The translations under genes and the position numbers were made by a program. A DNA stretch of 21,813 nt from a virus. Shown here piece after piece: positions 295-16,612 of this stretch; positions within the stretch are counted from its first letter, which is position 1; each line of letters begins with the position of its first letter. The notes below the pieces were generated by a model that saw only the letters and a program-made list of their open reading frames with translations, did no database searches and was not told where the DNA came from. The stretch covers positions 1 through 21,813 of the IMG/VR virus record IMGVR_UViG_3300032046_000246, one strand, 5' to 3'.

Positions 295-582
295 TCAGGG
301 CGAAGTGGCGGGGGTGACAGATATGGTAGGGGGCGGGGCGAGAGGGGGTTGCGGAAGGGTGGGGCGGGGCGCCGGCGCGGGTTGGGGTTCAGGGTCAGCC
401 TCGACGACTCCGGCGTGGGCAGCGAAGACGGCAGTGCAGGCGCAGGCGAAACAGGAGAGAACGGTGATCTTGTCGCCCGGCTGGGTCACGGCGTAGGAGG
501 CAGCATTCTCGCAGTCCGACGTTGCACAGAACATCGTCTCCGCCTCCAGCGGCACGGCTACTCTTCCGGCTTCTGCATACAT
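295..582 (-). CDS. Small Cys-rich protein with proline-rich tail, hypothetical
   Basis: A 95-residue protein and the last gene of the leftward early operon. I chose the ATG at 582 because it has an AAAGGA ribosome site about 8 bases upstream and overlaps the previous gene by 25 bp; the longer frame upstream is not needed. Cysteines occur as FCATSDC near residues 18-24 and as CFACAC near 44-49, a spacing that could bind one zinc ion. The C-terminal third is almost all Pro/Ala (PEPQPAPAPRPTLPQPPLAP) and lies opposite the G-rich + strand, so it may be a low-complexity extension. No family is recognised. Confidence 0.55.
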   Translation of the reverse strand: MYAEAGRVAVPLEAETMFCATSDCENAASYAVTQPGDKITVLSCFACACTAVFAAHAGVVEADPEPQPAPAPRPTLPQPPLAPPPTISVTPATSP

Positions 583-1142
583 CGGATCATCCTTTCCACG
601 TGCTCCGGCTTCAAGCAGATATGGCCAGTCTCGTAGTTCGAATAGGTGCCCAGGGTCAAGCCACATCGCTGGCCCGCCACCTTTAGAGTTAGCCCAGCAT
701 CCTGGCGCACGCGTCGGAGTTTCTCGCCGATCTCTCCGCGGGCGGTCTCCCGTTTGATGCCCATGATCTCATCCACCGCCTCACACCAGGCCAGCCACGT
801 GCCGTGGTGCTTGATGCCTCGCGCCATCCAAGACCGCACCCGCGAGGGCGGGACGCGCAGCGCCTTTGCGAGTTTCCAGATGGCCGCTGCCTCCGGGATT
901 TGCAAGGTCACCGATACCGCCTGGACCCCGTGATGCACAAGCGTCTGCCGGAGGCCCACGACGTCGAGGGGCCCCCTCGGGATGTGCCTGTGGAACTCCT
1001 CCGCCAGAGTGGTTGCCTGGCCCTTGGCCCACGCTTTTTGATAGAGGGCGTGGCTGGGATTCGCGACGGTTCCGGGCGAACAGCCCCGCACTGTCCCCCG
1101 CCCGTTGCGGAGCATCGTCTGAAGGATGTTCTCGCTCAGCAT
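558..1142 (-). CDS. XRE-type helix-turn-helix regulator (Mor-position candidate)
   Basis: A 194-residue protein. The C-terminal part, roughly residues 135-190, is a Cro/C1-type HTH: a helix starting GEKLRRVRQDAGLTL, then a turn and recognition helix around CGLTLGTYSNYETG. A separate helical segment near residues 88-130 (IWKLAKALRVPPSRVRSWMARG) looks like a second HTH. The ATG at 1142 follows a GAGGAGGG site that overlaps the stop of the upstream gene, which suggests translational coupling. In Mu the gene after gemA is mor, the middle/late activator; this gene holds a similar place at the end of the early operon but shows no Mor-family signature that I can see. It may therefore control late transcription, or it could be a repressor. 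Confidence 0.75.
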   Translation of the reverse strand: MLSENILQTMLRNGRGTVRGCSPGTVANPSHALYQKAWAKGQATTLAEEFHRHIPRGPLDVVGLRQTLVHHGVQAVSVTLQIPEAAAIWKLAKALRVPPSRVRSWMARGIKHHGTWLAWCEAVDEIMGIKRETARGEIGEKLRRVRQDAGLTLKVAGQRCGLTLGTYSNYETGHICLKPEHVERMIRCMQKPEE

Positions 1143-1157
1143 GCTCGTCGTCCCTCC

Positions 1158-1325
1158 TCAATCCACTGTCGGCCGGATCAGGACCCAGCCGACCGCGCCG
1201 CCGGCGATCAGGCCGATCAGGATGCCTTCCCACTCAAGCCGGCCGGGATCCATAAACGCGCCGCAGACGACGCCCATCGCAGTGAACCCACACCAGGCCA
1301 GCCACCGGATCGTTCTCTCGCTCAT
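1158..1325 (-). CDS. Tiny two-helix membrane protein
   Basis: A 55-residue frame starting MSERTIRWLAWCGFTAMGVV and ending WVLIRPTVD. It has two hydrophobic stretches, residues 7-25 and 34-51, separated by a short charged loop (MDPGRLEWEG). A near-perfect ribosome site, AAGGAGGTGAGGGG, directly precedes the ATG at 1325. Its stop codon overlaps the ribosome site of the HTH gene downstream. Topology with both ends on the same side fits a small holin-like or host-membrane-modifying protein, but no lysin lies nearby and the early position argues against a standard holin. Function unknown. Confidence 0.72.
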   Translation of the reverse strand: MSERTIRWLAWCGFTAMGVVCGAFMDPGRLEWEGILIGLIAGGAVGWVLIRPTVD

Positions 1326-1348
1326 CCCCTCACCTCCTTACCTTGGCT

Positions 1349-1480
1349 TCATCTACCCCAGAGAATCCCGATAGCGGCCGCCCCACACAGAACAATCCAG
1401 GTGAGAATGGCCGCGTAGAAGACGCCAAGCGCGCAGCCCTTCGTTATCGCCCACAGAGTTTCCTTCAGTTCCACTTTCAT
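1349..1480 (-). CDS. 43-residue single-span membrane protein
   Basis: A 43-residue frame starting MKVELKETLWAITKGC. A hydrophobic segment from about residue 17 to 40 (LGVFYAAILTWIVLCGAAAI) makes one membrane span, after a charged amphipathic N-terminus. A GGAGGTGAAGGG ribosome site precedes the ATG. The start overlaps the gemA stop as ATGA (1477-1480), which marks it as a coupled operon member. With the gene at 1158-1325 it makes a pair of micro-membrane proteins between gemA and the HTH regulator. Function unknown. Confidence 0.7.
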   Translation of the reverse strand: MKVELKETLWAITKGCALGVFYAAILTWIVLCGAAAIGILWGR

Positions 1481-2049
1481 CCCTTCACCTCCGTTCGTGA
1501 CTGCTCGCTTCTCTCTTCGCCGCCCTGCGTAGCGGGCTTCGCAGAGCAGGGCACTACTGACTGCCGTTCCACCGGGTAGTGCTTCGCCATGTTCCTCAAC
1601 CCCACGATCAGCGCGCTGGCCACATCGCGCGGCAGCGCGGTCCACTTTTCCGCAGCGAGATGGCGCTTGATGAGGGTATACTTCGGGTCGGCCAGGAAAT
1701 GCTGGAGGACGTAGGCCAACGGGCCGAGTTCCCGGCCGGCATACCACGCGATCTGATCGCAAAGATCCTCGATCATCTCACATTGGCGGGCCGTGGCGAA
1801 CTCGCCGTCCTCGACCGAGACCTCGGTCGGCTTGTCGGCCTTGAGGCGTGGCCGGCCGGGGCTGACCGTCTGGCCGTTGAGTTGCTGGAGTTCGGCGACG
1901 GCGGCCTTCCAGTCTTTGCGTCCCCAGGTCTTCGTGGATTCCTTCCCAACGCGCGACAGGTTGAACGCGTGCCGGTCCTCCTCGGTCATCGCGAGACCCT
2001 TGACCAGGGCGAAGTAGGCGCGCCGCAGATGTGCAGTCGTGTAGGCCAT
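1477..2049 (-). CDS. gemA: Mu gp16/GemA-like early regulatory protein
   Basis: A 190-residue protein. The first 60 residues carry the hallmark of the Mu gp16 (GemA) family: HLRRAYFALVKGLAMTEEDR followed by a Gly-Lys-Glu-Ser segment and a KDWKAAVAELQQL helix. A second helical block (residues 85-160) ends the family region. In Mu, GemA is an early protein reported to modify host gene expression and DNA topology. From about residue 160 onward the tail (VERQSVVPCSAKPATQGG...) is encoded by a hairpin-type repeat at 1522-1552, so the true conserved protein probably ended near there. The ribosome site (GAGGG) is weak, and a run of TCAGC repeats lies immediately upstream. Confidence 0.85.
   Translation of the reverse strand: MAYTTAHLRRAYFALVKGLAMTEEDRHAFNLSRVGKESTKTWGRKDWKAAVAELQQLNGQTVSPGRPRLKADKPTEVSVEDGEFATARQCEMIEDLCDQIAWYAGRELGPLAYVLQHFLADPKYTLIKRHLAAEKWTALPRDVASALIVGLRNMAKHYPVERQSVVPCSAKPATQGGEERSEQSRTEVKG
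1522..1552. repeat. Hairpin repeat inside the gemA 3' end
   Basis: GCCCTGC at 1522-1528 pairs perfectly with GCAGGGC at 1546-1552 around a 17-base loop containing GGGCTTCGC. Its layout resembles the hairpin at 9031-9058 (GCCCTCC...GGAGGGC with a TTCGC loop). It encodes residues of the GemA C-terminal tail, so it appears to be an intergenic repeat that became coding. Confidence 0.55.
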
Positions 2050-2053
2050 AACG

Positions 2054-2087
2054 TCAGCCCTCAGCGGTCAGCGTTCAGCGGTCAGCC
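2054..2087. repeat. Short TCAGC direct-repeat cluster upstream of gemA
   Basis: TCAGC recurs five times in about 34 bp, mostly spaced by GGT or GT (read on the - strand as GCTGA units). It fills the small gap between the 2082-2339 gene and gemA and covers the usual ribosome-site region of gemA. It looks like a small intergenic repeat rather than a defined operator. Confidence 0.5.
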
Positions 2088-2339
2088 ACGGGAATAATAA
2101 GGAACAGGCAACGGCGCCATCCGTTCCGGGGAATCCGCACGTATGAGTTCGTCCGCCTCAAAATATGCCGAGAGTGACAGAGGCTCTCCATTGAATACGA
2201 CCTCGACCAGTTCCAGATCTTCATGCGTCCGGAACGTGCGGAGAACCCGCGCAGTTAGGCGCCGCCGATGGCGCGCCACGTGGCGCATGAACGAGGGAGC
2301 CAACACCTTCATGCCGGGTCTGACTTCAGCGAATATCAT
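2082..2339 (-). CDS. Small early protein, unknown function
   Basis: An 85-residue protein. I chose the ATG at 2339 because AGGAGAAGG lies just upstream and it overlaps the preceding zinc-ribbon gene by 14 bp; the longer frame lacks such support. It begins MIFAEVRPGMKVLAPSFMRH and continues with a basic stretch (RHRRRLTARVLRTFR), then alternating hydrophobic residues (LELVEVVFNGEPLSLSAYF), which suggests a small beta-barrel. It sits between gemA and the zinc-ribbon gene in the early operon. No family recognised. Confidence 0.6.
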   Translation of the reverse strand: MIFAEVRPGMKVLAPSFMRHVARHRRRLTARVLRTFRTHEDLELVEVVFNGEPLSLSAYFEADELIRADSPERMAPLPVPYYSRG

Positions 2340-2544
2340 CTGCCTTCTCCTGTTCAAGGTTCGTGAGTGTGCAACGGCAGTTGTGGTGCATCGGCGGGGG
2401 AAAGTAGTCGAGGCGGATCCTCCCACATCGCGCGCACCGTAATTGTCGCCACCAATAGGCGATGCCCACGACAACTTCGTCGTGTCCACGGAGGCAGCAC
2501 CACAGGCGCCTAAGTAATTTCTTAATAGTCCTCGCGTTCTTCAT
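2326..2544 (-). CDS. Zinc-ribbon miniprotein (DUF1660-like pattern)
   Basis: A 72-residue protein with a basic N-terminus (MKNARTIKKLLRRLWCCLRG). Metal-ligand candidates are CCLRGH near residues 16-21 and CARCG near 37-41, with a further HHNCRC near 53-58. The first two resemble the small phage zinc-ribbon proteins grouped as DUF1660, although that match is by eye. The ATG at 2544 lies 2 bp after the Gam stop with an AAGGG site inside the end of gam, so it is coupled to it. Probably nucleic-acid or protein binding; function unknown. Confidence 0.6.
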   Translation of the reverse strand: MKNARTIKKLLRRLWCCLRGHDEVVVGIAYWWRQLRCARCGRIRLDYFPPPMHHNCRCTLTNLEQEKADDIR

Positions 2545-2546
2545 GG

Positions 2547-3080
2547 TCAGCCCTTCTTCTCGTGTTCTGCGATCTTGGCCCGTTCGAGTTCGTAGACGAA
2601 CTTCTCGCCGGGGCACTTGAAGATCAGCCCGCACTTGTGGAGCTGCTCCTCTGTCAGCTCGCCAGCCGAGAGGGCGGCCTGGATGGCCTCCTTGTTCACT
2701 TCAAGCCGCGTGCGGACGAGCTGGTCGAGTCCCCGCTTCTGAAGCAGGGCGACCGCCTCATCCTCGGACGTCCCCCTCGGCACCGTGACGCTGCCCCGCA
2801 GCTCCCGGAACCCGACCCAGCCGAAGAGGAGTCCAAGGGTCTTTACACCCTTCTTAAACAGGCTTTTACGGGCGCCCGCGACCTCCTCGCCCAGGGCCTT
2901 CTCAAGCGCCGTGATCTCCCCCACGAGTTCGCCCAGGCGGCCGGCGTAGTTCGCCTTGACTTGCGTGATGTCATGGTTCATCCGGACCTCGATCGCCTCG
3001 AGCTCGAGGCGCCGCCGGCCGATCGCCAGCAGGTGCGCGTTAACGTCCTCCAGGCCAGCTTCTTGTCTTACCTCTGCCAT
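2547..3080 (-). CDS. gam: Host-nuclease inhibitor Gam
   Basis: A 177-residue protein, close to the length of Mu Gam. The N-terminal half is a long coiled coil (residues 8-70, with IGRRRLELEAIEVRMN and GRLGELVGEITALEKALGEE), then the conserved central stretch with LGLLFGWVGFREL. The C-terminal region contains EEQLHKCGLIFKCPGEKFVYEL, close to the usual Gam ending. Gam is a Ku-like dimer that binds double-stranded DNA ends and blocks host exonucleases, protecting the injected or transposing phage DNA. The ATG at 3080 has a good AAGGAG site 5 bases upstream. The preceding gene overlaps its start by 41 bp. Confidence 0.92.
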   Translation of the reverse strand: MAEVRQEAGLEDVNAHLLAIGRRRLELEAIEVRMNHDITQVKANYAGRLGELVGEITALEKALGEEVAGARKSLFKKGVKTLGLLFGWVGFRELRGSVTVPRGTSEDEAVALLQKRGLDQLVRTRLEVNKEAIQAALSAGELTEEQLHKCGLIFKCPGEKFVYELERAKIAEHEKKG

Positions 3081-3291
3081 GGTTGCTCCTTGGGCCGGTT
3101 GGTGTCTTCTTGGCCCTCTTCTGTTCTTGCAGTATTTCTTCGTGTCGTTGCCGGACGATCTTCAAGTCCCGGTCCCGCGCCTCTGCCGCCTTCCTGGCGC
3201 GTGCCATGGAGACGAACTCCTCGACGATGAGGCGCCGCGTGCGGAACTTCGTCTCCTCTATCCGGCGCTTGATGATCTCGTCGTCGTTCAT
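3040..3291 (-). CDS. Small basic helical protein, hypothetical
   Basis: An 83-residue, highly charged protein starting MNDDEIIKRRIEETKFRTRR, followed by long helices rich in Arg, Lys and Glu (ARARKAAEARDRDLKIVRQR) and a basic tail. It is predicted to be mostly coiled coil. The ATG at 3291 lies 7 bp after the stop of the previous gene; the ribosome site (GAGAA) is modest. Its 3' end overlaps gam by 41 bp. The C-terminal 13 residues are in the overlap and may be unconstrained. No family recognised. Confidence 0.55.
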   Translation of the reverse strand: MNDDEIIKRRIEETKFRTRRLIVEEFVSMARARKAAEARDRDLKIVRQRHEEILQEQKRAKKTPTGPRSNHGRGKTRSWPGGR

Positions 3292-3298
3292 GCCGTTC

Positions 3299-3616
3299 TC
3301 ACCGGTGCAAGGGAAGGATGAAGATGCCCCCACCGCCGCCGCCCGCGATGCGCTGTGTGCGTTCACTTTCTGGCGCTGGCGGCGGGAGGACTACGCGAGG
3401 GCTGCGCATCTGCCGAAGCATGATGCCAGTCTTCAGGCCCTTGATCTGGTCTGTCAGATCTCCAAGGCGATGGGCCAATTCACGACGCTTCTTGTGGCTG
3501 TGGTCGCAGAAGTCCGGATGGCAATCTTCGACAAGGTTGAGGAAGTCGCAGATCACCTTCTCCCGCTCCGCTTCCACCTCCTCCAGTCGCACCTGGACGA
3601 TCTCTTCTTCGGTCAC
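3299..3616 (-). CDS. Small coiled-coil protein, hypothetical
   Basis: A 105-residue protein with a GTG start at 3616 after a GAGGAGG site. It opens with an acidic helix (TEEEIVQVRLEEVEAEREKV), followed by a His/Cys-containing segment (DCHPDFCDHSHKKRRELAHR, residues 31-50) that could bind metal, then a helix, and ends with a Pro-rich linker and a run of six glycines. It lies between the winged-helix gene and the small basic gene in the early operon. Function unknown. Confidence 0.58.
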   Translation of the reverse strand: MTEEEIVQVRLEEVEAEREKVICDFLNLVEDCHPDFCDHSHKKRRELAHRLGDLTDQIKGLKTGIMLRQMRSPRVVLPPPAPESERTQRIAGGGGGGIFILPLHR

Positions 3617-3630
3617 GGCATCCTCCTCAA

Positions 3631-4038
3631 CTAATCCTTGAACTGCCGGTTCATCTGGAACAGGAGGCGCTGCGCGAGCGCCATGCCCCGCTCAAGGTTG
3701 CGTGTGTTCGTCGCCATCTGCCGTTCTCCTGCCGTGTCATCCCCGCCGTAGTCGGCCGGCAGGCCTTCCAGGACGTCGCGGCGCAGGACGTAGACCGGCC
3801 GCTTGCGCGGGTCGCCGGGGCGCTTGAGCCAGACGAGGGGGACGGTCTCACCCTGATAGCCCTGGCGGCGGAGATACTCCCGGAGCCGGCTCACGCTGGT
3901 GTGCGGCGCCTCGACGTCGTGAAAGCGCCGGATCTCCCGCGAGGTGCCCCGGCCGCCAAGGAGAACGAGCGCCCGGAGGCAACCCTTGGCATCGGGTTCC
4001 GAATAGTGCATGACGTCTTCTGTCGCCGGGTCACTCAC
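3631..4038 (-). CDS. Winged-helix-like early protein
   Basis: A 135-residue protein. I prefer the GTG at 4038 because it overlaps the B stop codon as GTGA, with GGAAGAG upstream; GTG at 4047 and ATG at 4011 are alternatives. Residues 20-90 look like a winged helix: CLRALVLLGGRGTSREIRRF, then a recognition helix around TSVSRLREYLRRQGY, and a wing with KRPGDPRKRPVYVLRRDVLE. This suggests a DNA-binding regulator acting with the transposition genes. The C-terminus is a separate helix (ERGMALAQRLLFQMNRQFKD). No precise family. Confidence 0.68.
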   Translation of the reverse strand: MSDPATEDVMHYSEPDAKGCLRALVLLGGRGTSREIRRFHDVEAPHTSVSRLREYLRRQGYQGETVPLVWLKRPGDPRKRPVYVLRRDVLEGLPADYGGDDTAGERQMATNTRNLERGMALAQRLLFQMNRQFKD

Positions 4039-4955
4039 GGGGTCCACTCTTCCCAGGGCATGAGGGTATCGTAGGCGCGGCGGATGGTTGCGGGGCTGAT
4101 CTTCTCATGCCCGTTCATGCGCTGCGCGGCGACGATGCAGTTCACGGCCCGGCGCGCTTCGCCATGCGCGCCGTCAATGATGGCCTCGAGGGCCGCCTGG
4201 CTGAGACTGTAAGGGGCCAGGATCCCGGCCAGGTCATCGTCGGAACAGGACGGCAGCCGGACGGCGTGCTTGACGCGTCCGAGGACCTGGCGGATAGTTG
4301 CGCTCTTGCGCGCCCGGAGGCGTTCGAGATAGGCCGGCGTGCCGGCCCACGCCATGCCGATCCCCGCGTCGTCGTGGAGGAGACGGAGGGTTTGGACGAG
4401 CGGCTCGTGGACGTAGTCGATCTCATCCACGACGAGGAGGCGGGGGTGATTGAGAAGCTCGTGACCGACGCACTTCCGGAGGGTGAACAGATCGGAGTGC
4501 ATGGAGAGCTCGAGCCTGGCCGCGAGTTCGCGCAAAACCGCCCAGGGCGTGGCGCCGACGCCGGCGGTGAGAAGGAGGGTATCCGGCTCGGCCTCGCAGT
4601 AGCGGCGGATGCCGACCGACTTGCCGACGCCGGTGGGGCCGAGCAGGAGGACGATCACGCGTTCCATCTGGGCGATGCCGAGGGCGCGGACGACCTCCTC
4701 GACGACGGAGGTCTTCACATAAGGGGGCGGCTGCGGGGCGAGGGAACGGAGGCGCTCCCGCCTCAGATGCCTCCGCATCTGATCTGTGATCCGGGCCACC
4801 CGCCCCGCGTAAGTTTCGCTGTAGACCTGGCTGAGCGTCGCGCCGCTGACGCGCAGGAAGCGGCACTGCTCGGATCGGCTCATGCCGTGCAGATCGGCGA
4901 AGGCCGACCACTCGCGGACAGTCTTTCGTTCTTCGTCAATCCAAAGGTGCGGCAT
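4035..4955 (-). CDS. B: MuB-like AAA+ ATPase, transposition target-DNA activator
   Basis: A 306-residue protein, close to Mu B in length. Residues 15-60 form an N-terminal HTH-like region (EWSAFADLHGMSRSEQCRFL). The AAA+ core has Walker A GPTGVGKS at 106-113, Walker B LLVVDEID at 173-180 with D177 and E178, and a sensor-like AWAGTPAY near 202-209. The C-terminal helical domain (residues 235-300) is typical of this family. MuB forms ATP-dependent filaments on target DNA, stimulates MuA and gives target immunity. It lies downstream of A in the same direction, separated by a 112-bp gap containing three palindromic repeats, which may lower B expression relative to A. The ribosome site is GAGGGG. 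Confidence 0.94.
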   Translation of the reverse strand: MPHLWIDEERKTVREWSAFADLHGMSRSEQCRFLRVSGATLSQVYSETYAGRVARITDQMRRHLRRERLRSLAPQPPPYVKTSVVEEVVRALGIAQMERVIVLLLGPTGVGKSVGIRRYCEAEPDTLLLTAGVGATPWAVLRELAARLELSMHSDLFTLRKCVGHELLNHPRLLVVDEIDYVHEPLVQTLRLLHDDAGIGMAWAGTPAYLERLRARKSATIRQVLGRVKHAVRLPSCSDDDLAGILAPYSLSQAALEAIIDGAHGEARRAVNCIVAAQRMNGHEKISPATIRRAYDTLMPWEEWTP

Positions 4956-4968
4956 TGTTTTCCCCTCT

Positions 4969-5061
4969 CTGTGCGCGGCGGGACGCCGCGCCTACCCAGC
5001 TGTGCGCGGCGGGACGCCGCGCCTACCCAGCTGTGCGCGGCGGGAGGCCGCGCCTACTCAT
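4969..5061. repeat. Three tandem 31-bp palindromic repeats between A and B
   Basis: Units run 4969-4999, 5000-5030 and 5031-5061. The first two are identical; the third differs at a few bases. Each contains GCGCGGCG-GGA-CGCCGCGC, an 8-bp perfect stem with a 3-base loop (one mismatch in the third). On the leftward A-B mRNA this gives three consecutive very stable hairpins. It resembles REP-type intergenic palindromes. A polarity or mRNA-processing role between A and B is possible. Confidence 0.85.
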
Positions 5062-5067
5062 AATTGG

Positions 5068-7101
5068 CTACGCGATATCGGCCAGTCCCTCGTCGTAGAT
5101 CGTAGTGCGTTTGCGCGGTTGCGCGGAGGCGGCGGCCTCGACGGCAAGTTGCTGGCATGCGACGAGTTCGCGGACACGGTCATCCGCGACAGAGCGTTGC
5201 ATCTCGGCCGCGGCCACGTCAGCCTCGCGTTGGTGGATCGTGGCGACGGCGCCGATCGGGTCGAGTCGGGCGAGCGGGGTAGCCCCGTGCATTTCGACCG
5301 CGCGGGCGCGCAGGTATTCTCTCTGGAGACGCGCCCCGCGTTTCGACGCAAGGTTGGCATCGCCCCACTCGCCCCATTGGGCGTCGCGTGCGCGCGGCAC
5401 GGCCAGGACCCGCTTGTCCGGGGTGTAGACCCAGATGCAACCGGACTCCTCGGGGTCCCATCGGACAGTGACCACGCAACCGACGTAGATGGACAACTCG
5501 TCAGACCAGAAGCGCATCTGGACGCCGGCCGATTGGAGGTTGACGCCGGTCTGTTCGACGTGGACGCGCGGGCGCTCGTCCTGGAGGAGGAAGTTCAGGG
5601 TTGCCGGGTCTATGGTGCGGGGCTGAAAGTCTTCATAGAACGCGGCAGGCGGCTTGCCGCGATCTCCGCAGACGTGGTCCGTATGCCAGCGTTGGAGCTG
5701 CTCGTCAAAGACCGCCTCGAACTCTGGGAGGAAGAGGAGCATGCCGTCGCGGATCTGCGTATCGAGGATTTCCGGTTTCTTCTTCGCGTCGCGTCCGGTC
5801 CAACCGGGGACGAGGTTCTCCCACTGTCCGGAGAAGGCGTGGAAGATTGATTCGATCGGCTTGGACCAGGGATGGTAAGGCAGGGCCGTGACGAGCTCGA
5901 CGTCGAGGGCAGTCCAGACGCCGCACTGCTCAACGTCCGGGGGCAGGGCGCAGGGCCATTGCTGCCGCCCGTCGAGGTCCGTGCGCAGCGGTTTAAGGAG
6001 GCGGTCGGCGCGGCCGCCGAGGCGGCGGGCGCTGAACTCACGGCCGTTGTCGCGATAGAAGTGCTTCGGGATCCCCGCGCGCAGGATTGCGGATCGAAGG
6101 GCATGGCAGACGCCGGAGGCGGTCGGGACGAGTCCGAGGCGGTAGCCGACGAAGGCTGCGCTCGCGATATCTACGATCATCGAGAGCCAGGGCCGGCGGA
6201 CGGAGCAGCAGTGGCGGCGCTCGCGTCCCGAGCCACAGGGGCAGGCTGTTTTTTCGTGTTTGCCCCAGCCGGCGCCACGCCCGTCCGGGACGATTACCAT
6301 GAGGTCCCAGAGACGGTGATCGGCACACCACCAATCGTTGGGTTCAGTGGGCAGGGCGCGGACGACCTTTGGGGCGGCGTCGGCTTCGTAGGCGCGTCGG
6401 CCTTCGCGCCAGAAGACCTTTTCCAGGGGGAGGATGTGCTTGCGGACGAACCGGGCGACGGTGCTTCGGTGTGGCGGGTCCTGGGATATATCCTTATAGT
6501 AAGGGAGGACGACGTGGCTGTAGACCTGGGCGACGGTTGCGCGGCGCGAGTTGAGGTAGAACTCACGGACCTGGCATTGGAGGTCGGCGGGGAGGACGGT
6601 GCCTCCTTCGGAGACGCGCCAGGCAGGGAGGAGTGCGGCGGGGCCGCCGTCGCGGAGGTCCTTCCACCAGCGGTAGATGGTGGAGACGGATTCGCCGTAT
6701 TTGGCTGCGACGAGGTGGGCGGCGGCGCGCTTGCCGCCGTGCGCGGCATGGAGTTGGCGGTCGGCGTATTCCGCGACGATGCGCATGCGGCGGTCCCACT
6801 CCGAGGCATGGGAGGCGAGGCCGAGGGCGCGCATGGCGGCCACGTCGGGGATGCCGTCGTGGGTCAAAGGGACCATGTCAGGGGCGGGACCGCGGGCGGG
6901 AGCTGCGGTGAGCGCCAGCCGACTGTCGCCAAGGGCGAGGCCCTCGACGGCCGCCCGTGCGATGCCGTAGGTGATTTTGCCGTTCGGGTGCCGACCCGTA
7001 GGTTCGGCCTGGAGACGTCCGAGGCGGACGAGGCGGCGGACGGAGCGCAACGAGAGGCTGAGTTGGGTTGCGGCGTCCCGGAAGGTGAGTAGTTCTGTCA
7101 T
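5068..7101 (-). CDS. A: MuA-like DDE transposase with an internal SEC-C-type zinc motif
   Basis: A 677-residue protein; Mu A is 663. The ATG at 7101 overlaps the upstream stop as ATGA and follows GGGAGGG, so the longer frame upstream is rejected. Residues 1-55 are a MerR/Xis-like winged helix (LTFRDAATQLSLSLRSVRRL). Residues 100-165 are a further HTH (STIYRWWKDLRDGG). The integrase core runs about 250-430 with the likely triad D261 (CADHRLWD), D351 (YRDNGREF) and E417 (SKPIESIF). The Mu C-terminal beta-barrel follows near 525-590, then a helical tail likely to contact B. Unusually, residues 287-299 read CPCGSGRERRHCC, a textbook SEC-C zinc motif (C287, C289, C298, C299), placed between the first catalytic Asp and the next core strand. 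It carries out cut and strand transfer at the phage ends for integration and replicative transposition. Confidence 0.96.
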   Translation of the reverse strand: MTELLTFRDAATQLSLSLRSVRRLVRLGRLQAEPTGRHPNGKITYGIARAAVEGLALGDSRLALTAAPARGPAPDMVPLTHDGIPDVAAMRALGLASHASEWDRRMRIVAEYADRQLHAAHGGKRAAAHLVAAKYGESVSTIYRWWKDLRDGGPAALLPAWRVSEGGTVLPADLQCQVREFYLNSRRATVAQVYSHVVLPYYKDISQDPPHRSTVARFVRKHILPLEKVFWREGRRAYEADAAPKVVRALPTEPNDWWCADHRLWDLMVIVPDGRGAGWGKHEKTACPCGSGRERRHCCSVRRPWLSMIVDIASAAFVGYRLGLVPTASGVCHALRSAILRAGIPKHFYRDNGREFSARRLGGRADRLLKPLRTDLDGRQQWPCALPPDVEQCGVWTALDVELVTALPYHPWSKPIESIFHAFSGQWENLVPGWTGRDAKKKPEILDTQIRDGMLLFLPEFEAVFDEQLQRWHTDHVCGDRGKPPAAFYEDFQPRTIDPATLNFLLQDERPRVHVEQTGVNLQSAGVQMRFWSDELSIYVGCVVTVRWDPEESGCIWVYTPDKRVLAVPRARDAQWGEWGDANLASKRGARLQREYLRARAVEMHGATPLARLDPIGAVATIHQREADVAAAEMQRSVADDRVRELVACQQLAVEAAASAQPRKRTTIYDEGLADIA

Positions 7102-7328
7102 GCGCCCTCCCGCGCAAGCTCGAGGGCCGTCTGCCAGATCAGTCTCCACTGTTTGGCGCTGACGCACTTCCCGTTTGTGTCGGCGTGGAGGACGTCGCAG
7201 ACGTAGCGCCGGCCGGTCCCAAGGGCGGCAGCCAGGGCCGTCCGGCTTATGCGGTTACGCTCGCAGAAGCTGCGCAGTGCCCACGGCCGGCCGGCCTGTA
7301 GGCCTCGCTTTTTGGTCTTGACATCCAT
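7098..7328 (-). CDS. Ner-like small DNA-binding protein, first gene of the early operon
   Basis: A 76-residue protein starting MDVKTKKRGLQAGRPWALRS. A helix-turn-helix is visible at about residues 15-50 (FCERNRISRTALAAALGTGR, then RYVCDVLHA). I chose the ATG at 7328 because of the CAGGAGA site upstream; the start at 7412 would cover the promoter. Size, position before A and ATGA overlap with A match Mu Ner, which turns down the early promoter and the repressor gene. The sequence itself is not closely Ner-like, so the name is by role. Codons 2-4 contain the -35 box of the opposing rightward promoter. Confidence 0.72.
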   Translation of the reverse strand: MDVKTKKRGLQAGRPWALRSFCERNRISRTALAAALGTGRRYVCDVLHADTNGKCVSAKQWRLIWQTALELAREGA

Positions 7329-7346
7329 TTGGGTCTCCTGTATGCT
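7318..7346 (+). promoter_or_regulatory. Rightward sigma70-type promoter of the switch
   Basis: TTGACA at 7318-7323, a 17-bp spacer, and TATGCT at 7341-7346 preceded by TG at 7339-7340 would start transcription near 7353. It drives the HTH/zinc-ribbon gene at 7406 and the exported protein behind it. The -35 box lies inside codons 2-4 of the leftward gene. Confidence 0.75.
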
Positions 7347-7360
7347 ATTCGCCCTGCCCG

Positions 7361-7374
7361 GTGGCGTCCGCCAC
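7361..7374. promoter_or_regulatory. Palindromic candidate operator between the two switch promoters
   Basis: GTGGCG-TC-CGCCAC is a perfect 6-bp inverted repeat with a 2-bp centre. It lies between the predicted start sites of both promoters (about 7353 and 7377), almost at the midpoint of the -35 boxes. A second, related inverted repeat, GGCG-TAA-CGCC, occurs at 7439-7449 inside the rightward gene, and CCAC-T-GTGG overlaps it at 7371-7379. Likely bound by one or both HTH proteins encoded on either side. Confidence 0.55.
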
Positions 7375-7383
7375 TGTGGACAG

Positions 7384-7412
7384 ATTTTACACCCCGGAGA
7401 GGGCAATGTCAA
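7384..7412 (-). promoter_or_regulatory. Leftward early promoter of the switch
   Basis: On the - strand TTGACA (7412-7407) is followed by a 17-bp spacer and TAAAAT (7389-7384), with TG directly before the -10. Start of transcription would be near 7377, giving a leader of about 49 bases to the ATG at 7328. It would drive the whole early operon. Its -35 overlaps the start codon of the rightward gene at 7406. Confidence 0.75.
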
Positions 7413-7876
7413 GAAAAAAATTGACGGAAATACCGGATGGCGTAACGCCCTTTCGGCGCCTCGCCTGGGCGATCAAAGACGCGGGCTATAGCATCGGGGA
7501 GGCGGCGGGCCTCATGCGGATTTCGGAGGACCACTTGTCGGCGGTAATCAATGGGAGGCATACGCTCACCAAGAAACTCCTTCACTCCGCGCAGGAGGCT
7601 TTGCGCATTCAGATGCTATGGGTGATGAGCGGAATTGGCCCCTACCGCACGCAGGAGGACGGGCCTCAGTACGTGCTCGGGCCAATGTCCGCGCCGGCCT
7701 CAGGCACGGTGGCGGCACCGGTGATCGCGCGGCAGACCTGGCAGTGTGGATATTGCTATGCCGAGGTCAGGCAGTACGCGGAGACTTGTCATCGATGCGG
7801 GTCGAGGATAGACTGGAGCAACCAGGTGGAGTCTGCTTTGCCCGAATCTCAAAAGGATAAGGGGGAAGAAAGATGA
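7406..7876 (+). CDS. HTH plus zinc-ribbon regulator, probable lysogeny repressor
   Basis: A 156-residue protein. The ATG at 7406 has GGAGAGG upstream; the GTG at 7361 lies within the operator palindrome and is unlikely. Residues 14-62 form a Cro/C1-type HTH (FRRLAWAIKDAGYSIGEAAG, then a recognition helix near SEDHLSAVINGRH). After a flexible linker, residues 114-131 hold CGYC and CHRC, a four-Cys zinc ribbon. It has no S24 peptidase domain, so it is not the LexA-like self-cleaving type. Facing the early operon across shared promoters, it is the best candidate for the lysogenic repressor. Its stop overlaps the next gene as ATGA. Confidence 0.75.
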   Translation: MSRKKLTEIPDGVTPFRRLAWAIKDAGYSIGEAAGLMRISEDHLSAVINGRHTLTKKLLHSAQEALRIQMLWVMSGIGPYRTQEDGPQYVLGPMSAPASGTVAAPVIARQTWQCGYCYAEVRQYAETCHRCGSRIDWSNQVESALPESQKDKGEER

Positions 7877-8385
7877 AAAGGCACATGTTGATCGGCCTCG
7901 GGTTTGTGTCGGCGCTGGCCCTGGGCGTGGCCACTCAGGTCAGCCGCGAGGAGTTTGATGCGCTGGCGAAGAAGCTGTCCATCCTGGAACAGAATGTTTC
8001 TGCGCTGAGAATAGACGTGGACAGGTTTAAGTCTTCTCGTGCGGAGAGCGGGTTGCCGCGGGACGCGAAGGGACAGAAGGCGGGGGCCGTATTGGGGGCC
8101 TGGGAGGGGACGGGGATCGAGGCCACTAAGGCGTTCCAGGCGCGTTCTCCATGGCGGATCGAATGGACAGCGTCGGGAGATGGCTTTCTGAGCGTTCGAG
8201 TATGCGAGGCGGGTGGCGCGTCATCCTCGGACCTCGTCGTGAATGAAATGACCACACGCAACCCGAAGAAGGGAGAGACTTATATCCACGCCTCCGGGGC
8301 GTTCTACTTGAAGATTGAGGGGTTCGACTCGAAGTGGTCCGTGCGCGCGATTCAGGAGGCAGCGGAGACGCCTGCCGTTCCCTGA
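7873..8385 (+). CDS. Exported or membrane-anchored protein coupled to the repressor
   Basis: A 170-residue protein. Residues 1-21 (MKRHMLIGLGFVSALALGVA) are a signal peptide or N-terminal anchor; there is no lipobox Cys. A short coiled coil follows at 25-55 (EEFDALAKKLSILEQNVSAL). Residues 75-160 look like a compact beta domain, with SPWRIEWTASGDGFLSVRV and GAFYLKIEGFDSKWSVRAIQ. It is translationally coupled to the regulator by ATGA and followed by a terminator, so the two genes form one unit likely expressed in the lysogen. An envelope protein in this position may act as a lysogenic conversion or superinfection-exclusion factor. That role is inferred, not recognised. Confidence 0.72.
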   Translation: MKRHMLIGLGFVSALALGVATQVSREEFDALAKKLSILEQNVSALRIDVDRFKSSRAESGLPRDAKGQKAGAVLGAWEGTGIEATKAFQARSPWRIEWTASGDGFLSVRVCEAGGASSSDLVVNEMTTRNPKKGETYIHASGAFYLKIEGFDSKWSVRAIQEAAETPAVP

Positions 8386-8414
8386 CGTGGCTCGTTGACT
8401 ATTGGTGAATGATC

Positions 8415-8450
8415 GCCGGGCGTGGTTGATCGCCGCGCCCGGCTTTTTTT
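8415..8450 (+). terminator. Intrinsic terminator of the lysogeny operon
   Basis: GCCGGGCG (8415-8422) pairs perfectly with CGCCCGGC (8436-8443), followed directly by seven T residues at 8444-8450. It closes the two-gene rightward operon about 30 bp after its last stop and separates it from the late promoter. Confidence 0.88.
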
Positions 8451-8470
8451 GTGCCGGGCGGGAATAGGTC

Positions 8471-8500
8471 TTGACGGGGGCACTGCTTTTCCTGTATTCT
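8471..8500 (+). promoter_or_regulatory. Candidate late-operon promoter
   Basis: TTGACG at 8471-8476, an 18-bp spacer, and TATTCT at 8495-8500 with TG before it (extended -10). Transcription would start near 8507. It lies 21 bp after the terminator T-tract and upstream of the first late gene. An inverted repeat GCCG-GAA-CGGC at 8514-8524 just past the start could be an operator. The rest of the 8386-8568 gap holds no gene. Confidence 0.6.
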
Positions 8501-8568
8501 TGTTCGCGGAAGTGCCGGAACGGCTCCAGGCGGTGGAGGACCGGCCGAGAACGCTATAGGGATATGCG

Positions 8569-9021
8569 GTGCCTGCGTCGAAGAAGGACCTGAAGCCGAG
8601 AGCGCGCTCAAGATTTGCGGCCGGGTTGTCTCTCGAACAGATCGCCGCTGAGCTGGGGGTCTCGGTCGCCACAATCTCCCGCTGGAAAGCCTTCGACAAA
8701 CGCGCCGGTCATTCCTGGGAGCAGGAGGCGCCGATAAGCGATCTCGCGGATCTGCGCGACGTGATCTCGGCTCTCATCAAACGCCTTCGCTCTCTCGCCC
8801 ACGACGAGAGCATGGGCACACCCGCCTGGGCCGACGCGCTCATGAAGCTCATGAACAGCCTGGACAAGACGATCGGGCTGTTCGGCGACAGTCTTCAGCT
8901 CATGATTGCGATGGACCGGTTCTCGCGTTGGTTCGAGGAGCGGCTGAAGGACGAGGACTTGGCCCTCGTGCGGCGGGTGGTGAATGGGTTCGTTGCAGAT
9001 CTCAAGGAGGAAGCCAAGTGA
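8569..9021 (+). CDS. Small terminase-like DNA-binding protein (DUF1804/Mu gp27-like)
   Basis: A 150-residue protein with a GTG start at 8569 and a modest AGGG site. Residues 10-42 are an HTH (ARSRFAAGLSLEQIAAELGV followed by SVATISRWKAFD), and the rest is long helices (DVISALIKRLRSLA, MKLMNSLDKTIGLF). HTH plus helical oligomerisation region, and a position before the large terminase, fit the DNA-recognition subunit of the headful packaging motor in transposable phages. It is the first gene of the late operon. Confidence 0.72.
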   Translation: MPASKKDLKPRARSRFAAGLSLEQIAAELGVSVATISRWKAFDKRAGHSWEQEAPISDLADLRDVISALIKRLRSLAHDESMGTPAWADALMKLMNSLDKTIGLFGDSLQLMIAMDRFSRWFEERLKDEDLALVRRVVNGFVADLKEEAK

Positions 9022-9030
9022 GCCTACTCC

Positions 9031-9058
9031 GCCCTCCTTCGCTAAAGCTACGGAGGGC
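9031..9058. repeat. Intergenic hairpin repeat, CCTCCTTCGC family
   Basis: GCCCTCC (9031-9037) pairs with GGAGGGC (9052-9058) around a loop with TTCGC. A related stem-loop lies at 11293-11308, and a similar layout occurs at 1522-1552. It fills most of the 94-bp gap between the small terminase gene and the next gene. Confidence 0.65.
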
Positions 9059-9115
9059 TACGAAGGCCAGGGCAGTGAGTAGAAACAGCAACGATACTGA
9101 CGAAGGGAGCCCGGC

Positions 9116-9412
9116 ATGATCTGGATTCAAATCGTGATCTCGGCGGTCAGTGCAGTGGTTGGGGGCCTCGTAGGAAGCTGGAGCGTAGCGTTCAGGTTCG
9201 GGCAACGGCTCCAGCGCATTGACGATCGGCTGGAGGCAGCGGAGGGCCGCCTTGAAAGGGGCAACCGCCCGCTGGACCTGGTCCCTGTGCTGGACGTGCG
9301 GCTGCAAGCCCTGATTGATGATGTCCATGAGATAAAACAGGAGCTTCGCGACTGGCTGCCGCGACTGGTGTCAAAAGAGGAATGCGATCGGAGGCATGGG
9401 GATGGGAGATAG
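9116..9412 (+). CDS. Membrane-anchored coiled-coil protein (DUF2730-like)
   Basis: A 98-residue protein. Residues 1-25 (MIWIQIVISAVSAVVGGLVG) are a membrane anchor; residues 28-90 form a coiled coil (LQRIDDRLEAAEGRLERGN). This design and its place between terminase genes match the DUF2730-type proteins common in Mu-like phages, whose function is not established; a spanin- or holin-like role has been considered for proteins of this shape, but this is inference. Ribosome site GAAGGGAG. It overlaps the next gene by 11 bp. Confidence 0.7.
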   Translation: MIWIQIVISAVSAVVGGLVGSWSVAFRFGQRLQRIDDRLEAAEGRLERGNRPLDLVPVLDVRLQALIDDVHEIKQELRDWLPRLVSKEECDRRHGDGR

Positions 9413-9641
9413 AGAGGCGCTGGAGAAGTTTGCAGTCGGGGTCCGGGCCGACCGCGACAACGCGGAGGCGGTGGCGACGCACGCGCAGGAGAGCCTGTCC
9501 CGCCAGGCGTGCGGGATCGTGAAGCTCGAAGATCTGAACCCGGACGAGATCCGGGCGGCCGCCGACGATCTTGCGAGCGCGGTGGAGAAGTTGAAGATCT
9601 GGGAAGAGGTGGCGAGGCGGGTAAGACACATACTCATGTAG
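9402..9641 (+). CDS. Small helical late protein, hypothetical
   Basis: A 79-residue protein from the ATG at 9402, which sits at good distance from GGAGG (9390-9394); the ATG at 9396 is too close to it but possible. It is acidic and helical (EALEKFAVGVRADRDNAEAV, then DEIRAAADDLASAVEKLKIW). It overlaps the end of the previous gene by 11 bp. No family recognised; position suggests a Mu gp26-like small protein. Confidence 0.6.
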   Translation: MGDREALEKFAVGVRADRDNAEAVATHAQESLSRQACGIVKLEDLNPDEIRAAADDLASAVEKLKIWEEVARRVRHILM

Positions 9642-9649
9642 CCGCCACA

Positions 9650-9713
9650 TGACGCAGATGAACACGAATGAGGCGAAAGAAAAAACGGCGTTCATCGGCG
9701 TCCATCTGCGGCT
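9650..9713. repeat. MITE-like intergenic repeat, copy 1
   Basis: It starts TGACGCAGATGAAC and ends GCGTCCATCTGCGGCT, with an 8-bp terminal inverted repeat CGCAGATG/CATCTGCG. A longer copy with both end sequences identical lies at 19938-20041. It fills the gap between the stop at 9641 and the large terminase gene. No coding capacity. Confidence 0.75.
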
Positions 9714-9731
9714 TGATTGAAGGCTTCGATT

Positions 9732-11291
9732 ATGGCGGTGAAGTGGTCACGGGAGCACGAGGTGATCCGGCAGCGGATACTTGAGCGGCAGCAGCTCGAG
9801 GCCCCGCCGTTCGAGGATCTGTCGGAGGAGGCCGTTGCGACCCGCAAGGCGCTGCCGCTCGTTGATCTGCACGGGACGACGGACTGGTGTCGAACCTACT
9901 TGCCGCATTACTTCGATCGGCCCTTCGCGCGGTTCCACGGGCGGATGGCCGGCGCGGTCGGCGAGGGGGCGATGCCGACCTTCGTGGCGGCGTTCAGGGG
10001 GGCGGGCAAATCAGTCCTGCTGGCCCTGGCGAGGCCACTGCGGGAGATCCTGAGCCGGCGCCTGCCTTTTGCGATCTACGGCGCGCGCGTGCAGAAGTTG
10101 GCCGCGCAGAACATGGACTACGTCCGGCTTGAGATCGAGCACAACCCGCGCATCCGGTGCGACTATGGCGAGTTGACTGTCGAGGGTGAAGAGAACGAGT
10201 GGATCGTCAGTCTGCCGAAGGTGCGGGACGAGGGGGGCAAGTGGGCGCTGCGCGGGGCGAAGGTGGAGGCGTTCGGCATCGGGATGAGCCCGCGTGGCCG
10301 CAGGTTCGGCGAGTGGCGTCCCGCGGAGTTCATCGGCGACGACCTGGAAGACTCCGAGCTCGCCCGGAACCCGGAGCGGGAGAAGAACCTTTGGGACTGG
10401 ATGATGGACGAGGTCCTTCCGGCGCTGGAGCCGGAGCGCTACAGGTTCACGGTGCTCGGGACGATGTTCGGTCCCCTGTGCATGATGGAGCGGGCGAAGG
10501 AACTTGCGGCGAAGCGCGACGCGCAAGGGCGGGCGCTCGGGCGGCTGTTCCTTCAGCAGGCGGTGGAGAACGGGCACAGCGTCTGGCCGGAACGGTTCTC
10601 GGATGCGGCGCTGGAGCGGACTCGTGCGCAGATCGGGCTGAGGAACTGGAACCGGAACTTCGCGCTCATAAGCGAGGACCCGGACAAGCCGTTCCAGGCG
10701 GCGTGGTTTACGGATTACGAGGCGGACGCGCTCGACGTGTCTCAGCTCGACGTGGTTGCGTTCCTTGACCCGGCGATCTCGCAGTCGGCGATGGGTTGCC
10801 CGAGGGCACTCATCACGGTCGGCGCGGACCGGGACAGCGGGCGGCGCTACGTGCTGGAGGCCTGGGTCACGCGCGGCACGCCGATGCAGATGGTTGACCA
10901 GATATTCGAGGTCAACACGCGCTGGCAGCCGAGGGTGATCGGGATCGAGATCAACGGCGGGTATGCGCTCATTCGGCCGCTGCTGGAGATGCGCGGTGGG
11001 GATGCCTTCCTGCCGATCCGATACGTGACGCACGTGAGGCCGAAGGAGCTTCGGATCGAGCGGCTGGCGCCGCAGTTCGAGGCGAAGCGCTGGTTCTTCC
11101 CTCGGAACCCCGGGCCGGGGATCCGGGCGCTCCAAGAGCAGTTGCTTAGTTATCCGGATGGGTTCGTTGACGGGCCGGATGCGCTGGCTGGGTGCGACGA
11201 GATGCTGCCGGACGCGCTGCGGCCGCGCAAGCGAGGGACGGAGTATCGGTCGCTTGGTCGAAGACGTGAAGGAATGAGGGTGCTCGTGTGA
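9732..11291 (+). CDS. Terminase large subunit (Mu gp28-like)
   Basis: A 519-residue protein; ATG at 9732 with a GAAGG site (the TTG at 9717 lies next to the repeat and is not needed). The ATPase half shows Walker A FRGAGKS at 88-94 and a Walker B-type strand EFIGDD ending at D203-D204, preceded by the terminase signature PRGRRFGEWRPAEF. The RNase H-like nuclease half has FLDPAIS with D346, GIEINGG with E406, and an acidic site near 480-489 (DGPDALAGCD). The protein pumps DNA into the prohead and cuts it headful by headful; in Mu-like phages this cuts from integrated copies into flanking host DNA. It follows the small subunit by two genes. Confidence 0.94.
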   Translation: MAVKWSREHEVIRQRILERQQLEAPPFEDLSEEAVATRKALPLVDLHGTTDWCRTYLPHYFDRPFARFHGRMAGAVGEGAMPTFVAAFRGAGKSVLLALARPLREILSRRLPFAIYGARVQKLAAQNMDYVRLEIEHNPRIRCDYGELTVEGEENEWIVSLPKVRDEGGKWALRGAKVEAFGIGMSPRGRRFGEWRPAEFIGDDLEDSELARNPEREKNLWDWMMDEVLPALEPERYRFTVLGTMFGPLCMMERAKELAAKRDAQGRALGRLFLQQAVENGHSVWPERFSDAALERTRAQIGLRNWNRNFALISEDPDKPFQAAWFTDYEADALDVSQLDVVAFLDPAISQSAMGCPRALITVGADRDSGRRYVLEAWVTRGTPMQMVDQIFEVNTRWQPRVIGIEINGGYALIRPLLEMRGGDAFLPIRYVTHVRPKELRIERLAPQFEAKRWFFPRNPGPGIRALQEQLLSYPDGFVDGPDALAGCDEMLPDALRPRKRGTEYRSLGRRREGMRVLV

Positions 11292-11292
11292 T

Positions 11293-11308
11293 CCTCCTTC
11301 GCCGGAGG
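11293..11308. repeat. Short hairpin at the terminase-portal junction
   Basis: CCTCC-TTCGCC-GGAGG forms a 5-bp stem directly after the terminase stop. It shares CCTCCTTCGC with the repeat at 9031-9058. The flank (AGAGGAC) supplies the ribosome site of the portal gene. Confidence 0.55.
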
Positions 11309-11323
11309 CTTCAGAGGACTTAA

Positions 11324-13474
11324 GTGGGGACGACAGAGGTGAAGACTCTTGGTCCGGACGGCAGGCCGCTGCGGCTGCCGGACAAGGCGCTGCAGGCGCC
11401 GGCTGAGACGACCGGCGGCGCGCGGACAGTGGTGAGCCACGTGGACGTGGAGACGCTCACGCCGCGGCAGATCAAGGCGATGCTCGTCGCGGCGGAGACA
11501 GGGGACCTTTCCAGCCAGGCAGCGCTCTTCGAGCGGATGCAGGAGAAGGACGGCGAGCTGGACGCGCACCTGCGGACGCGGCGTGCGGCCGTGGCCTCGC
11601 TGCCCTGGGAGATCCTCCCGGGAGAGGACAGCGCGGAGGCAAGGCGCGCGGCCGACTATGCGCGCGACGTGGTCGCGGGGATCCCCGCGCTCGCCGATGC
11701 GATCCAGGACCTGCTCGATGCGGTGCCGATGGGGTTCGCGGCGGTCGAGATTGACTGGGAGACGAGCGAGAAGGAATGGCGGCCGGCGCGGCTTCTCTAC
11801 CGCCCGCAGCGTTGGTTCGAGGCGGCCGCGGACGGCGTGACGCTGAGACTCAAGAAACCGTGGGGGGGGGCCGAGGTCGAGTTGAACCCCACGAACTGGA
11901 TACTGCACCGCGCGAAGGCGCGCAGCGGGTTCCTCGGCCGCACGTCACTTCTGAGATCGTGCGTCCGGGGCTTCATCGTGCGCCACGTGTCCTGGAAGGA
12001 CTGGATGGCCTTCGCAGAGGTCTACGGCATGCCGATGCGGATCGGACGGCTGCGCGAGGGCGTGCCGTGGGATTCCGACGAGGCGAAGCAACTCTGGGAC
12101 GCGGTCCGGGCGCTGGGGATGGACGCGGCGGCCGTGGTGCGCGAGGGGAACGAGATTGCGACGGTCGAGACGAAGGGCGGGACCGGTGCGATCTTCCAGG
12201 CGATCCTGGAGTCCGGCAGCCGGGAGATCACGCTGGCGATCCTGGGCCAGACGCTGACCAGCGGAGGGGAGAAGGGCGGCTCCTTCGCGCTGGGCCAGGT
12301 GCACAACCTGGTGAGGACGGACCTGCGTAACGACGATGCGACTTCCCTCGCGCAGACACTGAGCGACCAACTCCTCGCGCCGATCGTGCTACTCAACCAG
12401 GGGCAGGTGCCGCTGCCGCGATGGGGTTACGCGATCGAAGAGCCGGAGGACGTCGGTCTCCTCGCGACGACACTGAAGACGTTGGGCGAGGCGATCCCGG
12501 GACTGAAGGTGCCGAGGGCCTGGCTCTACAAGAAGTTCGACATCCCGGAGCCGGGCAAGGGGGAGGAGACGGTTGAACTCAGGCCGGCTACGATGGGCGC
12601 ATTCAGCAACGAGGATTCACCACGAAGCGCACGAAGAACACGAAGAACGGCACAGCAACTGATTACTGCTGACTACTCACTGCTCACTGCCGTTCCTGCG
12701 TTCCGGCACGAGGCGCGGATGTGGCGGTGCTCGCCGGAGGATTTTGCACTGAGGCTTCACCAAGACGAGGCGTGGCGGGTGCTGGACAAAAACGCGCTGG
12801 CGTTCCTGGCAGAGAAGCGCGTCGCAAATCCAGCGACGTGGCAGGCGCTCAGCCCGGCTGGGAAGCAGCGGGCCTGGTGGGTGACTGGACTGGACGAGAA
12901 GCAGACGGCCCGGGTGGCGCACGATCTGACGCGGGTGCTCGAAGAGGGCGAGACAGAGAACCAATTCCTTGAGCGGCTCGAGGCGCGCGGGCTGAGCGTG
13001 CCGGAATCGCTCGCGCCGGAGGTGGGGCAGATCCCGGCGTGGCAGGCGCGGCTCGTCCACAGGAATAACCGGTGGACTGCGCAGAACGCAGGGCAATACA
13101 TCCGCATCCAGCAGGACAGCGACGTGCGGCCCTACGGCCAATGGCTCTGCCACACGCCCTGCGAGGTCTGCGCGCCGCTCTGCGGCAACGTCGCGCCGCT
13201 GAACGGCGATTTCTTCAGCACCTACTGGCCGCAGATCCACCACGGCTGCCAGTGCGAAGTCGTGAGCATGTCCGACGACGAGATTGACAGTGAGGGGCTG
13301 CGCGGTAGGCTCGACCAGGCTGATCCAAGTCCGCTCGATGCACCGCCGGACTTCATGTATCACCCCGGCGATGCGTTCTACCTTCAGGACGAGGGCGGTG
13401 AGCCGGCGACGGAGGCGGGCCGAAGCGACCTGGCGCTGTTGATGAAACTCGCACGGGTCGCAGATCTGCTTTGA
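11324..13474 (+). CDS. Portal protein fused to MuF-type head morphogenesis domain
   Basis: A 716-residue protein with a GTG start and AGAGGAC site; a GTG at 11339 is an alternative. Residues 45-420 are a Mu gp29-type portal (DUF935): TPRQIKAMLVAAETGDLSSQ, PYR-type core around RPQRWFEAAADGV, RTSLLRSCVRGF, and the late ILGQTLTSGGEKGGSFALGQ. Residues 465-650 are a MuF/gp30-like domain ending with CEVC (613-616) and WPQIHHGCQCEVV (635-647), the His/Cys signature. The two are separate genes in Mu. Residues 429-458, at the junction, are translated repeat DNA (see 12610-12691). The portal forms the DNA gate at one capsid vertex; MuF-type proteins act in early head assembly. A G9 run occurs at 11872-11880. 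Confidence 0.92.
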   Translation: MGTTEVKTLGPDGRPLRLPDKALQAPAETTGGARTVVSHVDVETLTPRQIKAMLVAAETGDLSSQAALFERMQEKDGELDAHLRTRRAAVASLPWEILPGEDSAEARRAADYARDVVAGIPALADAIQDLLDAVPMGFAAVEIDWETSEKEWRPARLLYRPQRWFEAAADGVTLRLKKPWGGAEVELNPTNWILHRAKARSGFLGRTSLLRSCVRGFIVRHVSWKDWMAFAEVYGMPMRIGRLREGVPWDSDEAKQLWDAVRALGMDAAAVVREGNEIATVETKGGTGAIFQAILESGSREITLAILGQTLTSGGEKGGSFALGQVHNLVRTDLRNDDATSLAQTLSDQLLAPIVLLNQGQVPLPRWGYAIEEPEDVGLLATTLKTLGEAIPGLKVPRAWLYKKFDIPEPGKGEETVELRPATMGAFSNEDSPRSARRTRRTAQQLITADYSLLTAVPAFRHEARMWRCSPEDFALRLHQDEAWRVLDKNALAFLAEKRVANPATWQALSPAGKQRAWWVTGLDEKQTARVAHDLTRVLEEGETENQFLERLEARGLSVPESLAPEVGQIPAWQARLVHRNNRWTAQNAGQYIRIQQDSDVRPYGQWLCHTPCEVCAPLCGNVAPLNGDFFSTYWPQIHHGCQCEVVSMSDDEIDSEGLRGRLDQADPSPLDAPPDFMYHPGDAFYLQDEGGEPATEAGRSDLALLMKLARVADLL
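12610..12691. repeat. In-frame repeat insert at the portal-MuF junction
   Basis: CACGAAG occurs three times with exact 9-bp spacing (12621, 12630, 12639), followed by a run of ACTGCT/ACTACT/CACTGC units at about 12659-12691. Both are simple intergenic-type repeats, lower in GC than the gene around them. Translated they give a basic SPRSARRTRRT segment then TADYSLLTAV, unlike either neighbouring domain. Confidence 0.7.
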
Positions 13475-13485
13475 AGGAGGGTTAC

Positions 13486-14958: not shown

Positions 14959-15023
14959 CACAATGCGCCGCCCCGCGCTGAGTCGAGGGACGGACGCGAC
15001 ATCACGAATCGGAGGATTGTTAG

Positions 15024-15503: not shown

Positions 15504-15562
15504 CGGAGCCTCGTGAGCAGGCGGTTGAGAAGAGCGAAGAACATTCTTAAGGAGACTGACAG

Positions 15563-16450: not shown

Positions 16451-16479
16451 ACAGCCAACACTAACAGCGAGTGAGAGGC

Positions 16480-16508
16480 CGGGGCCTGGAGATAAATCAC
16501 GGGCCCCG
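16480..16508. repeat. GC-rich hairpin after the capsid gene
   Basis: CGGGGCC (16480-16486) pairs with GGCCCCG (16502-16508) around a 15-base loop. There is no T-tract, so it is not a classic terminator. It lies 30 bp after the major capsid stop and could stabilise the abundant capsid mRNA at its 3' end. Confidence 0.45.
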
Positions 16509-16522
16509 AGCCTCCCCGGGTT

Positions 16523-16612
16523 GCGGTCCGCCTAGGTCGGCGGACCTACTCGGTATGGGTAGCCGAGGCGGTCCGCCGAGGACGGCGGACCTACCGAATA
16601 TGGGTAGGTGAG
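16523..16612. repeat. Two tandem 45-bp palindrome-containing repeats
   Basis: Units 16523-16567 and 16568-16612 are near-identical. Each has a GGTCCGCC...GGCGGACC inverted repeat followed by CTAC, then TATGGGTAG. A partial third copy with GAGGCGTCTCGCCTC follows to about 16627. This accounts for most of the 191-bp gap between the capsid and connector genes. The ribosome site of the next gene (GAGGAAC) lies at its right edge. Confidence 0.8.

Follow-up and report, generated by a model that had tools for sequence, protein, structure and literature searches.

A SEC-C-like cysteine motif in the beta1-beta2 loop of a MuA-type phage transposase

The locus considered here raises the question of whether a metal-binding motif best known from the C-terminus of SecA can lie inside the catalytic core of a transposase and, if so, what it could do there. 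The 21,813-base window (the whole stretch of DNA analysed) is a virus record with the gene content of a Mu-like phage. The transposase gene is on the (-) strand (5068..7101) and encodes 677 amino acids; residues are numbered from the ATG at 7101. The longest open reading frame begins at an in-frame GTG at 7167, 22 codons upstream, and would lengthen the protein by 22 amino acids. We identified matches to phrog_310 (E 1.2e-68), to HTH_28 (exceeding the Pfam cut-off) and, after the core, to the Mu-transpos_C beta-barrel domain (PF09299; 26.2 bits vs a cut-off of 21.7). Overall identity to the MuA protein of Mu is 17%.

Encoded nearby on the same strand are a MuB-type AAA+ transposition protein, the partner of the transposase (4035..4955; phrog_296, E 4e-39; AAA_22), Gam (2547-3080; phrog_491) and GemA (1477-2049; PF06252). 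Genes for the Mu-type terminase, portal/minor head, protease, major head and tape measure proteins are on the (+) strand. The protein is a MuA-type phage transposase, as the RNase H DDE triad, Mu-transpos_C and the neighboring MuB, Gam and GemA are all present; these features and the domain order are shared with Mu MuA (4fcy, 1bco) and its phage relatives (phrog_310; BalMu-1 type). In Mu, A and B point the same way as the late genes; here, the early transposition genes (558-7412, (-)) and the late structural genes (7361-21716, (+)) diverge around ~7.4 kb. The small protein encoded at 7361-7876 (+), divergent from the transposase operon, has a weak HTH match and possibly a C-terminal zinc ribbon (CGYCYAEVRQYAETCHRCG), and is likely a repressor. 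Other features of the window include a single 716-aa open reading frame (11324-13474, (+)) in which portal and Mu gp30-like minor head proteins are fused (phrog_113, phrog_220), and a small Cys-containing protein (295-666, (-); CATSDCENAAS...CFACAC) that matches no Pfam family and has a proline-rich tail.

The catalytic residues D261 (6319-6321), D351 (6049..6051) and E417 (5851..5853), all encoded on the (-) strand, are invariant in an alignment of 35 sequences. An AlphaFold2 model of the transposase calculated from this alignment has a MuA/TnsB-like fold, with 7svw, 8aa5, 8ea3 and 4fcy as its best PDB matches and further matches to the Mu core (1bco/1bcm). In the model, D261 is in strand beta1 of the RNase H fold (residues 257-264; 6310..6333, (-)). 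The segment RPWLSMIVDI (residues 303-312; 6166..6195, (-)) is strand beta2, modelled as a strand over residues 305-311; R303 is nearly invariant and D311 is invariant in the alignment. The original prediction had therefore placed the first catalytic Asp and RPWLSMIVDI correctly, given that the triad is invariant across the 35 relatives.

Between these two strands is the motif CPCGSGRERRHCC (residues 287-299; 6205..6243, (-)), exactly as had been claimed from the translation. It has a CPCGSG core and a CxCx8CC pattern. The transposase contains 13 Cys in its 677 residues, and a random protein of the same composition is expected to contain CxCx8CC ~9e-5 times and CPCG[SGA]Gx5C[CH] ~2e-8 times. 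The profile comparison places a SEC-C match at residues 287-299 but with a low score: Pfam SEC-C (PF02810) gives 11.7 bits (E 0.26), under its cut-off of 20.4 bits, and a profile built from 17 phage SEC-C proteins gives a weak 12.6 bits. When the 28-residue insert alone was compared with all PDB chains (E<=10), it retrieved five SEC-C chains of SecA or YchJ, a hypothetical protein whose C-terminus matched, and nothing else. The best match is the SecA SEC-C peptide 1ozb (E 0.0077), and the others include YchJ and the SecA peptides 1tm6 and 1sx0.

The CPCGSG-x5-CC identity and spacing are common to the SEC-C family, which includes the SecA C-terminal metal-binding domain, YchJ, YecA-family proteins and small phage SEC-C proteins. 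In canonical members, CPCG is usually preceded by GRND, the Cys pairs are separated by KKxKK, and the domain is often a terminal tail. The motif in the window is internal, has RERRH in place of the lysine-rich KKxKK, and has two extra residues before CPCG (GKHEK-TA); these flanking and intervening stretches resemble the canonical ones but have diverged. We term the motif SEC-C-like because the predicted metal-ligand pattern is the same and the insert retrieves SecA and YchJ in the PDB, but the residues between the Cys pairs have diverged. The small phage SEC-C proteins form a family in their own right, which recurs in several viral contigs (L008 6413-6697, L010 3268-3552, L163, L168, L169 and L194) with the pattern RN[DEQ]x-CPCGSG[KR]KAKxCC-L followed by a LAALPP-like stretch.

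The motif forms the core of an insertion of ~21 residues (residues ~280-300, GKHEKTACPCGSGRERRHCCS; 6202..6264, (-)) in the loop that joins beta1 and beta2 of the RNase H core, as residue spacing and alignment to MuA show. The distance from D261 to D311 is 51 residues in the window and in a second phage (contig L001) vs 25-30 in 33 insert-free relatives, which bears out the predicted position between the first Asp and beta2. In the nearest insert-free sequences (L140; L155-L159), the loop passes directly into RPWL. For example, the L158 loop reads VKLPDGKGGWQYKRPWL, whereas the window has VIVPDGRGAGW, then GKHEKTACPCGSGRERRHCCS, then VRRPWL. In the alignment with Mu MuA, the insertion point is flanked by G282 and R286. 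The Mu beta1-beta2 loop, FNGDVIRPK, is without Cys, and the claim that MuA has no zinc site here thus agrees with the alignment; the window transposase is ~21 residues longer and carries CPCGSG..CC. The AlphaFold2 model has a strand at 269-271, a long loop, and strands at 300-302 and 305-311, a strand-loop-strand arrangement around the insert, with low confidence for the insert itself (pLDDT about 50-56). A model of the core from two sequences has a mean pLDDT of 33.

Metal-binding modules have been added to RNase H-type enzymes elsewhere, as in RAG1, hAT and piggyBac transposases and the HHCC domain of retroviral integrase. To our knowledge, these zinc modules are at the termini or at a late RNase H insertion site, not in the beta1-beta2 loop. 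TnsB of the type V-K CAST (7svw, 8aa5), the best solved-structure match by both sequence and fold, also differs: the word zinc is absent from its structure paper and no zinc site is mentioned there (PMC9527255). In the titles and abstracts covered by our literature search, nothing relevant on SEC-C within transposases was identified.

The independently assembled contig L001 (22.7 kb) has the same divergent early/late layout as the window phage and a homologue of the putative repressor (41% identity). Its transposase is 71% identical to that of the window, and the adjacent MuB is co-inherited (74% identity). The insert in L001 retains all four Cys and CPCGSG, and has RERRR between the Cys pairs. 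Upstream it reads GRHDK-LS, which resembles GRNDK of the phage SEC-C proteins with two additional residues. The L001 transposase has no Pfam SEC-C match at E<=1. Across the motif, the two phages differ by five synonymous changes and one non-synonymous change (dN 0.035, dS 0.88), compared with a gene-wide dN/dS of about 0.26, and four of the seven residues directly upstream differ (GKHEKTA / GRHDKLS). This pattern is suggestive of selection on the motif cysteines, and is not proof, because the substitution counts are small and come from a single sequence pair. It also bears on whether the motif could be a product of sequencing error, frame error or chance, a reading to which the Pfam score under the cut-off lends some color and to which we assign a negligible probability. 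The frame is open in two independently assembled phages, the changes are biased towards synonymous sites, and the chance expectation is ~2e-8; L001 and this expectation rule it out.

The clade anticipated for the motif is real but consists of only two known phages. In a tree of 37 transposases the two carriers group together with support of 100/100, on a long stem amid insert-free relatives. L140 groups with them, but its placement is unsure because the branches are long. The insert is probably confined to a narrow lineage and gained once. We did not see it in the loops read from ~150 further, more distant loci with related transposases. Likewise, scanning 2.9 million viral contigs for a SEC-C motif with RP[W/Y/F] after it, or for a long insertion of any kind in the loop, identified no third carrier. 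These patterns accept only TGC for the first Cys codon, or a start of W-C-x-D-H, and so could miss divergent carriers. Other SEC-C pattern matches fell in separate small proteins of phages or at the ends of unrelated proteins, or arose by chance, and matches to the long-insertion pattern were unrelated open reading frames. Wider searches of the clade with a family signature (77 genome loci), the pattern PYxPWxKP and profile seeds returned only the window and L001 as carriers, and a scan of genome contigs with P0001 gave 0 relatives. When a core-plus-insert peptide was compared with plasmids and phages, the combination of SEC-C and transposase was not seen among the matches listed, which, judged by match lengths and annotations, were YecA-type SEC-C proteins, insert-free transposases and weak unrelated sequences. 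It is conceivable, although we consider it rather improbable, that in a distinct lineage of Mu-like phages the transposase captured a folded SEC-C metal knuckle within its catalytic domain, and that transpososome assembly or target choice in this lineage depends on the bound metal or on a partner recognizing the knuckle.

The direct observations are the insertion, its position and the conservation of its Cys across two phages. The reading that we favor, with slightly more confidence than doubt, is that the transposase gained a metal-stabilised SEC-C-like knuckle in its beta1-beta2 loop, which corresponds to the G282 loop of MuA, and that this knuckle acts as a surface contact module that tunes transposition. 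The four Cys would together ligate a single metal ion (Zn or possibly Fe), such that the insert may fold on its own and leave the catalytic fold undisturbed. The insert has a net charge of about +5 in the window phage (+6 in L001), and the knuckle could provide a contact site on the protein surface, close to where the RNase H core meets the beta-barrel and outside the active site. It may touch target or end DNA, a neighboring protomer or a partner, and through this contact tune transpososome assembly or target capture. The most likely role of the insert would be that of a metal-stabilised contact patch for DNA, protomer or partner. Counting against a metal knuckle are the Pfam score below the cut-off, RERRH instead of KKxKK, the existence of only two carriers and the low pLDDT of the insert.

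Experiments on MuA suggest that this site could accept such a module. A pentapeptide scan found the core to be almost wholly intolerant of insertions except in a few loops, and residue 282 is in one of two domain II loops where insertions raised activity, which the authors tentatively ascribe to flexibility of subdomain IIalpha relative to IIbeta (PMC3362531). Region 280-290 is variable among 44 MuA homologues, in which relatively long natural domain II insertions are 8-10 residues, and the authors proposed that such loops could receive whole domains (PMC3362531). The tolerance of the MuA loop and the variability of the region imply that the larger, Cys-stapled module was placed in an early core loop able to take it. 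The description of the motif as inserted in the catalytic core is accurate as to location, but sounds more disruptive than a tolerated surface loop warrants. The same tolerance, whereby the equivalent MuA loop takes foreign pentapeptides without loss of activity (PMC3362531), and the confinement of the insert to one small lineage could instead mean that it is a passenger in a permissive surface loop, metal-binding or not, with little or no role in transposition. This is the main rival to the contact-patch role, and we consider it unlikely: at a dS of ~0.8, the 13-residue motif has one protein change vs five silent changes, while the upstream residues have drifted.

The behavior of SEC-C in SecA offers two further possibilities. 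The SecA knuckle, which carries positive charge, coordinates a metal, thought to be Zn, via CxCx8C(H/C), and it binds SecB (1ozb is a complex of the metal-binding domain with SecB) and ribosomes (PMC6620043). By analogy, and given the SecA peptide as top PDB match and the co-inherited MuB, the insert might dock a host protein or the MuB encoded by the same phage and so recruit or regulate the transposase. We regard this docking as improbable, though not strikingly so. In Mu, MuB contacts are attributed to the C-terminal domain III rather than the beta1-beta2 loop, and the present data point to no particular partner. Iron has also been proposed as the physiological ligand of the SecA domain, which may change its structure according to iron or redox state (PMC6620043). 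If this applied here, loss of metal or oxidation could alter the loop and shift transposition down or up with the state of the cell. Such a switch seems very improbable, as nothing specific to the window protein indicates it and the loop is outside the active site.

Overall, the observation behind the original prediction is confirmed, and its interpretation is supported in part: the kind of motif, its place and a clade sharing it are borne out, with DNA or protein contact and metal dependence as putative properties. The transposase fold, the tolerance of the loop and the SEC-C motif were each known separately; new is the motif in an unusual place, with two members in the collections searched. 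If the favored reading is true, these phages carry a natural folded mini-domain in a MuA loop that experiment has marked as insertion-tolerant and activity-raising, which could inform the engineering of Mu-type transposases and would mean that SEC-C is not restricted to terminal tails.
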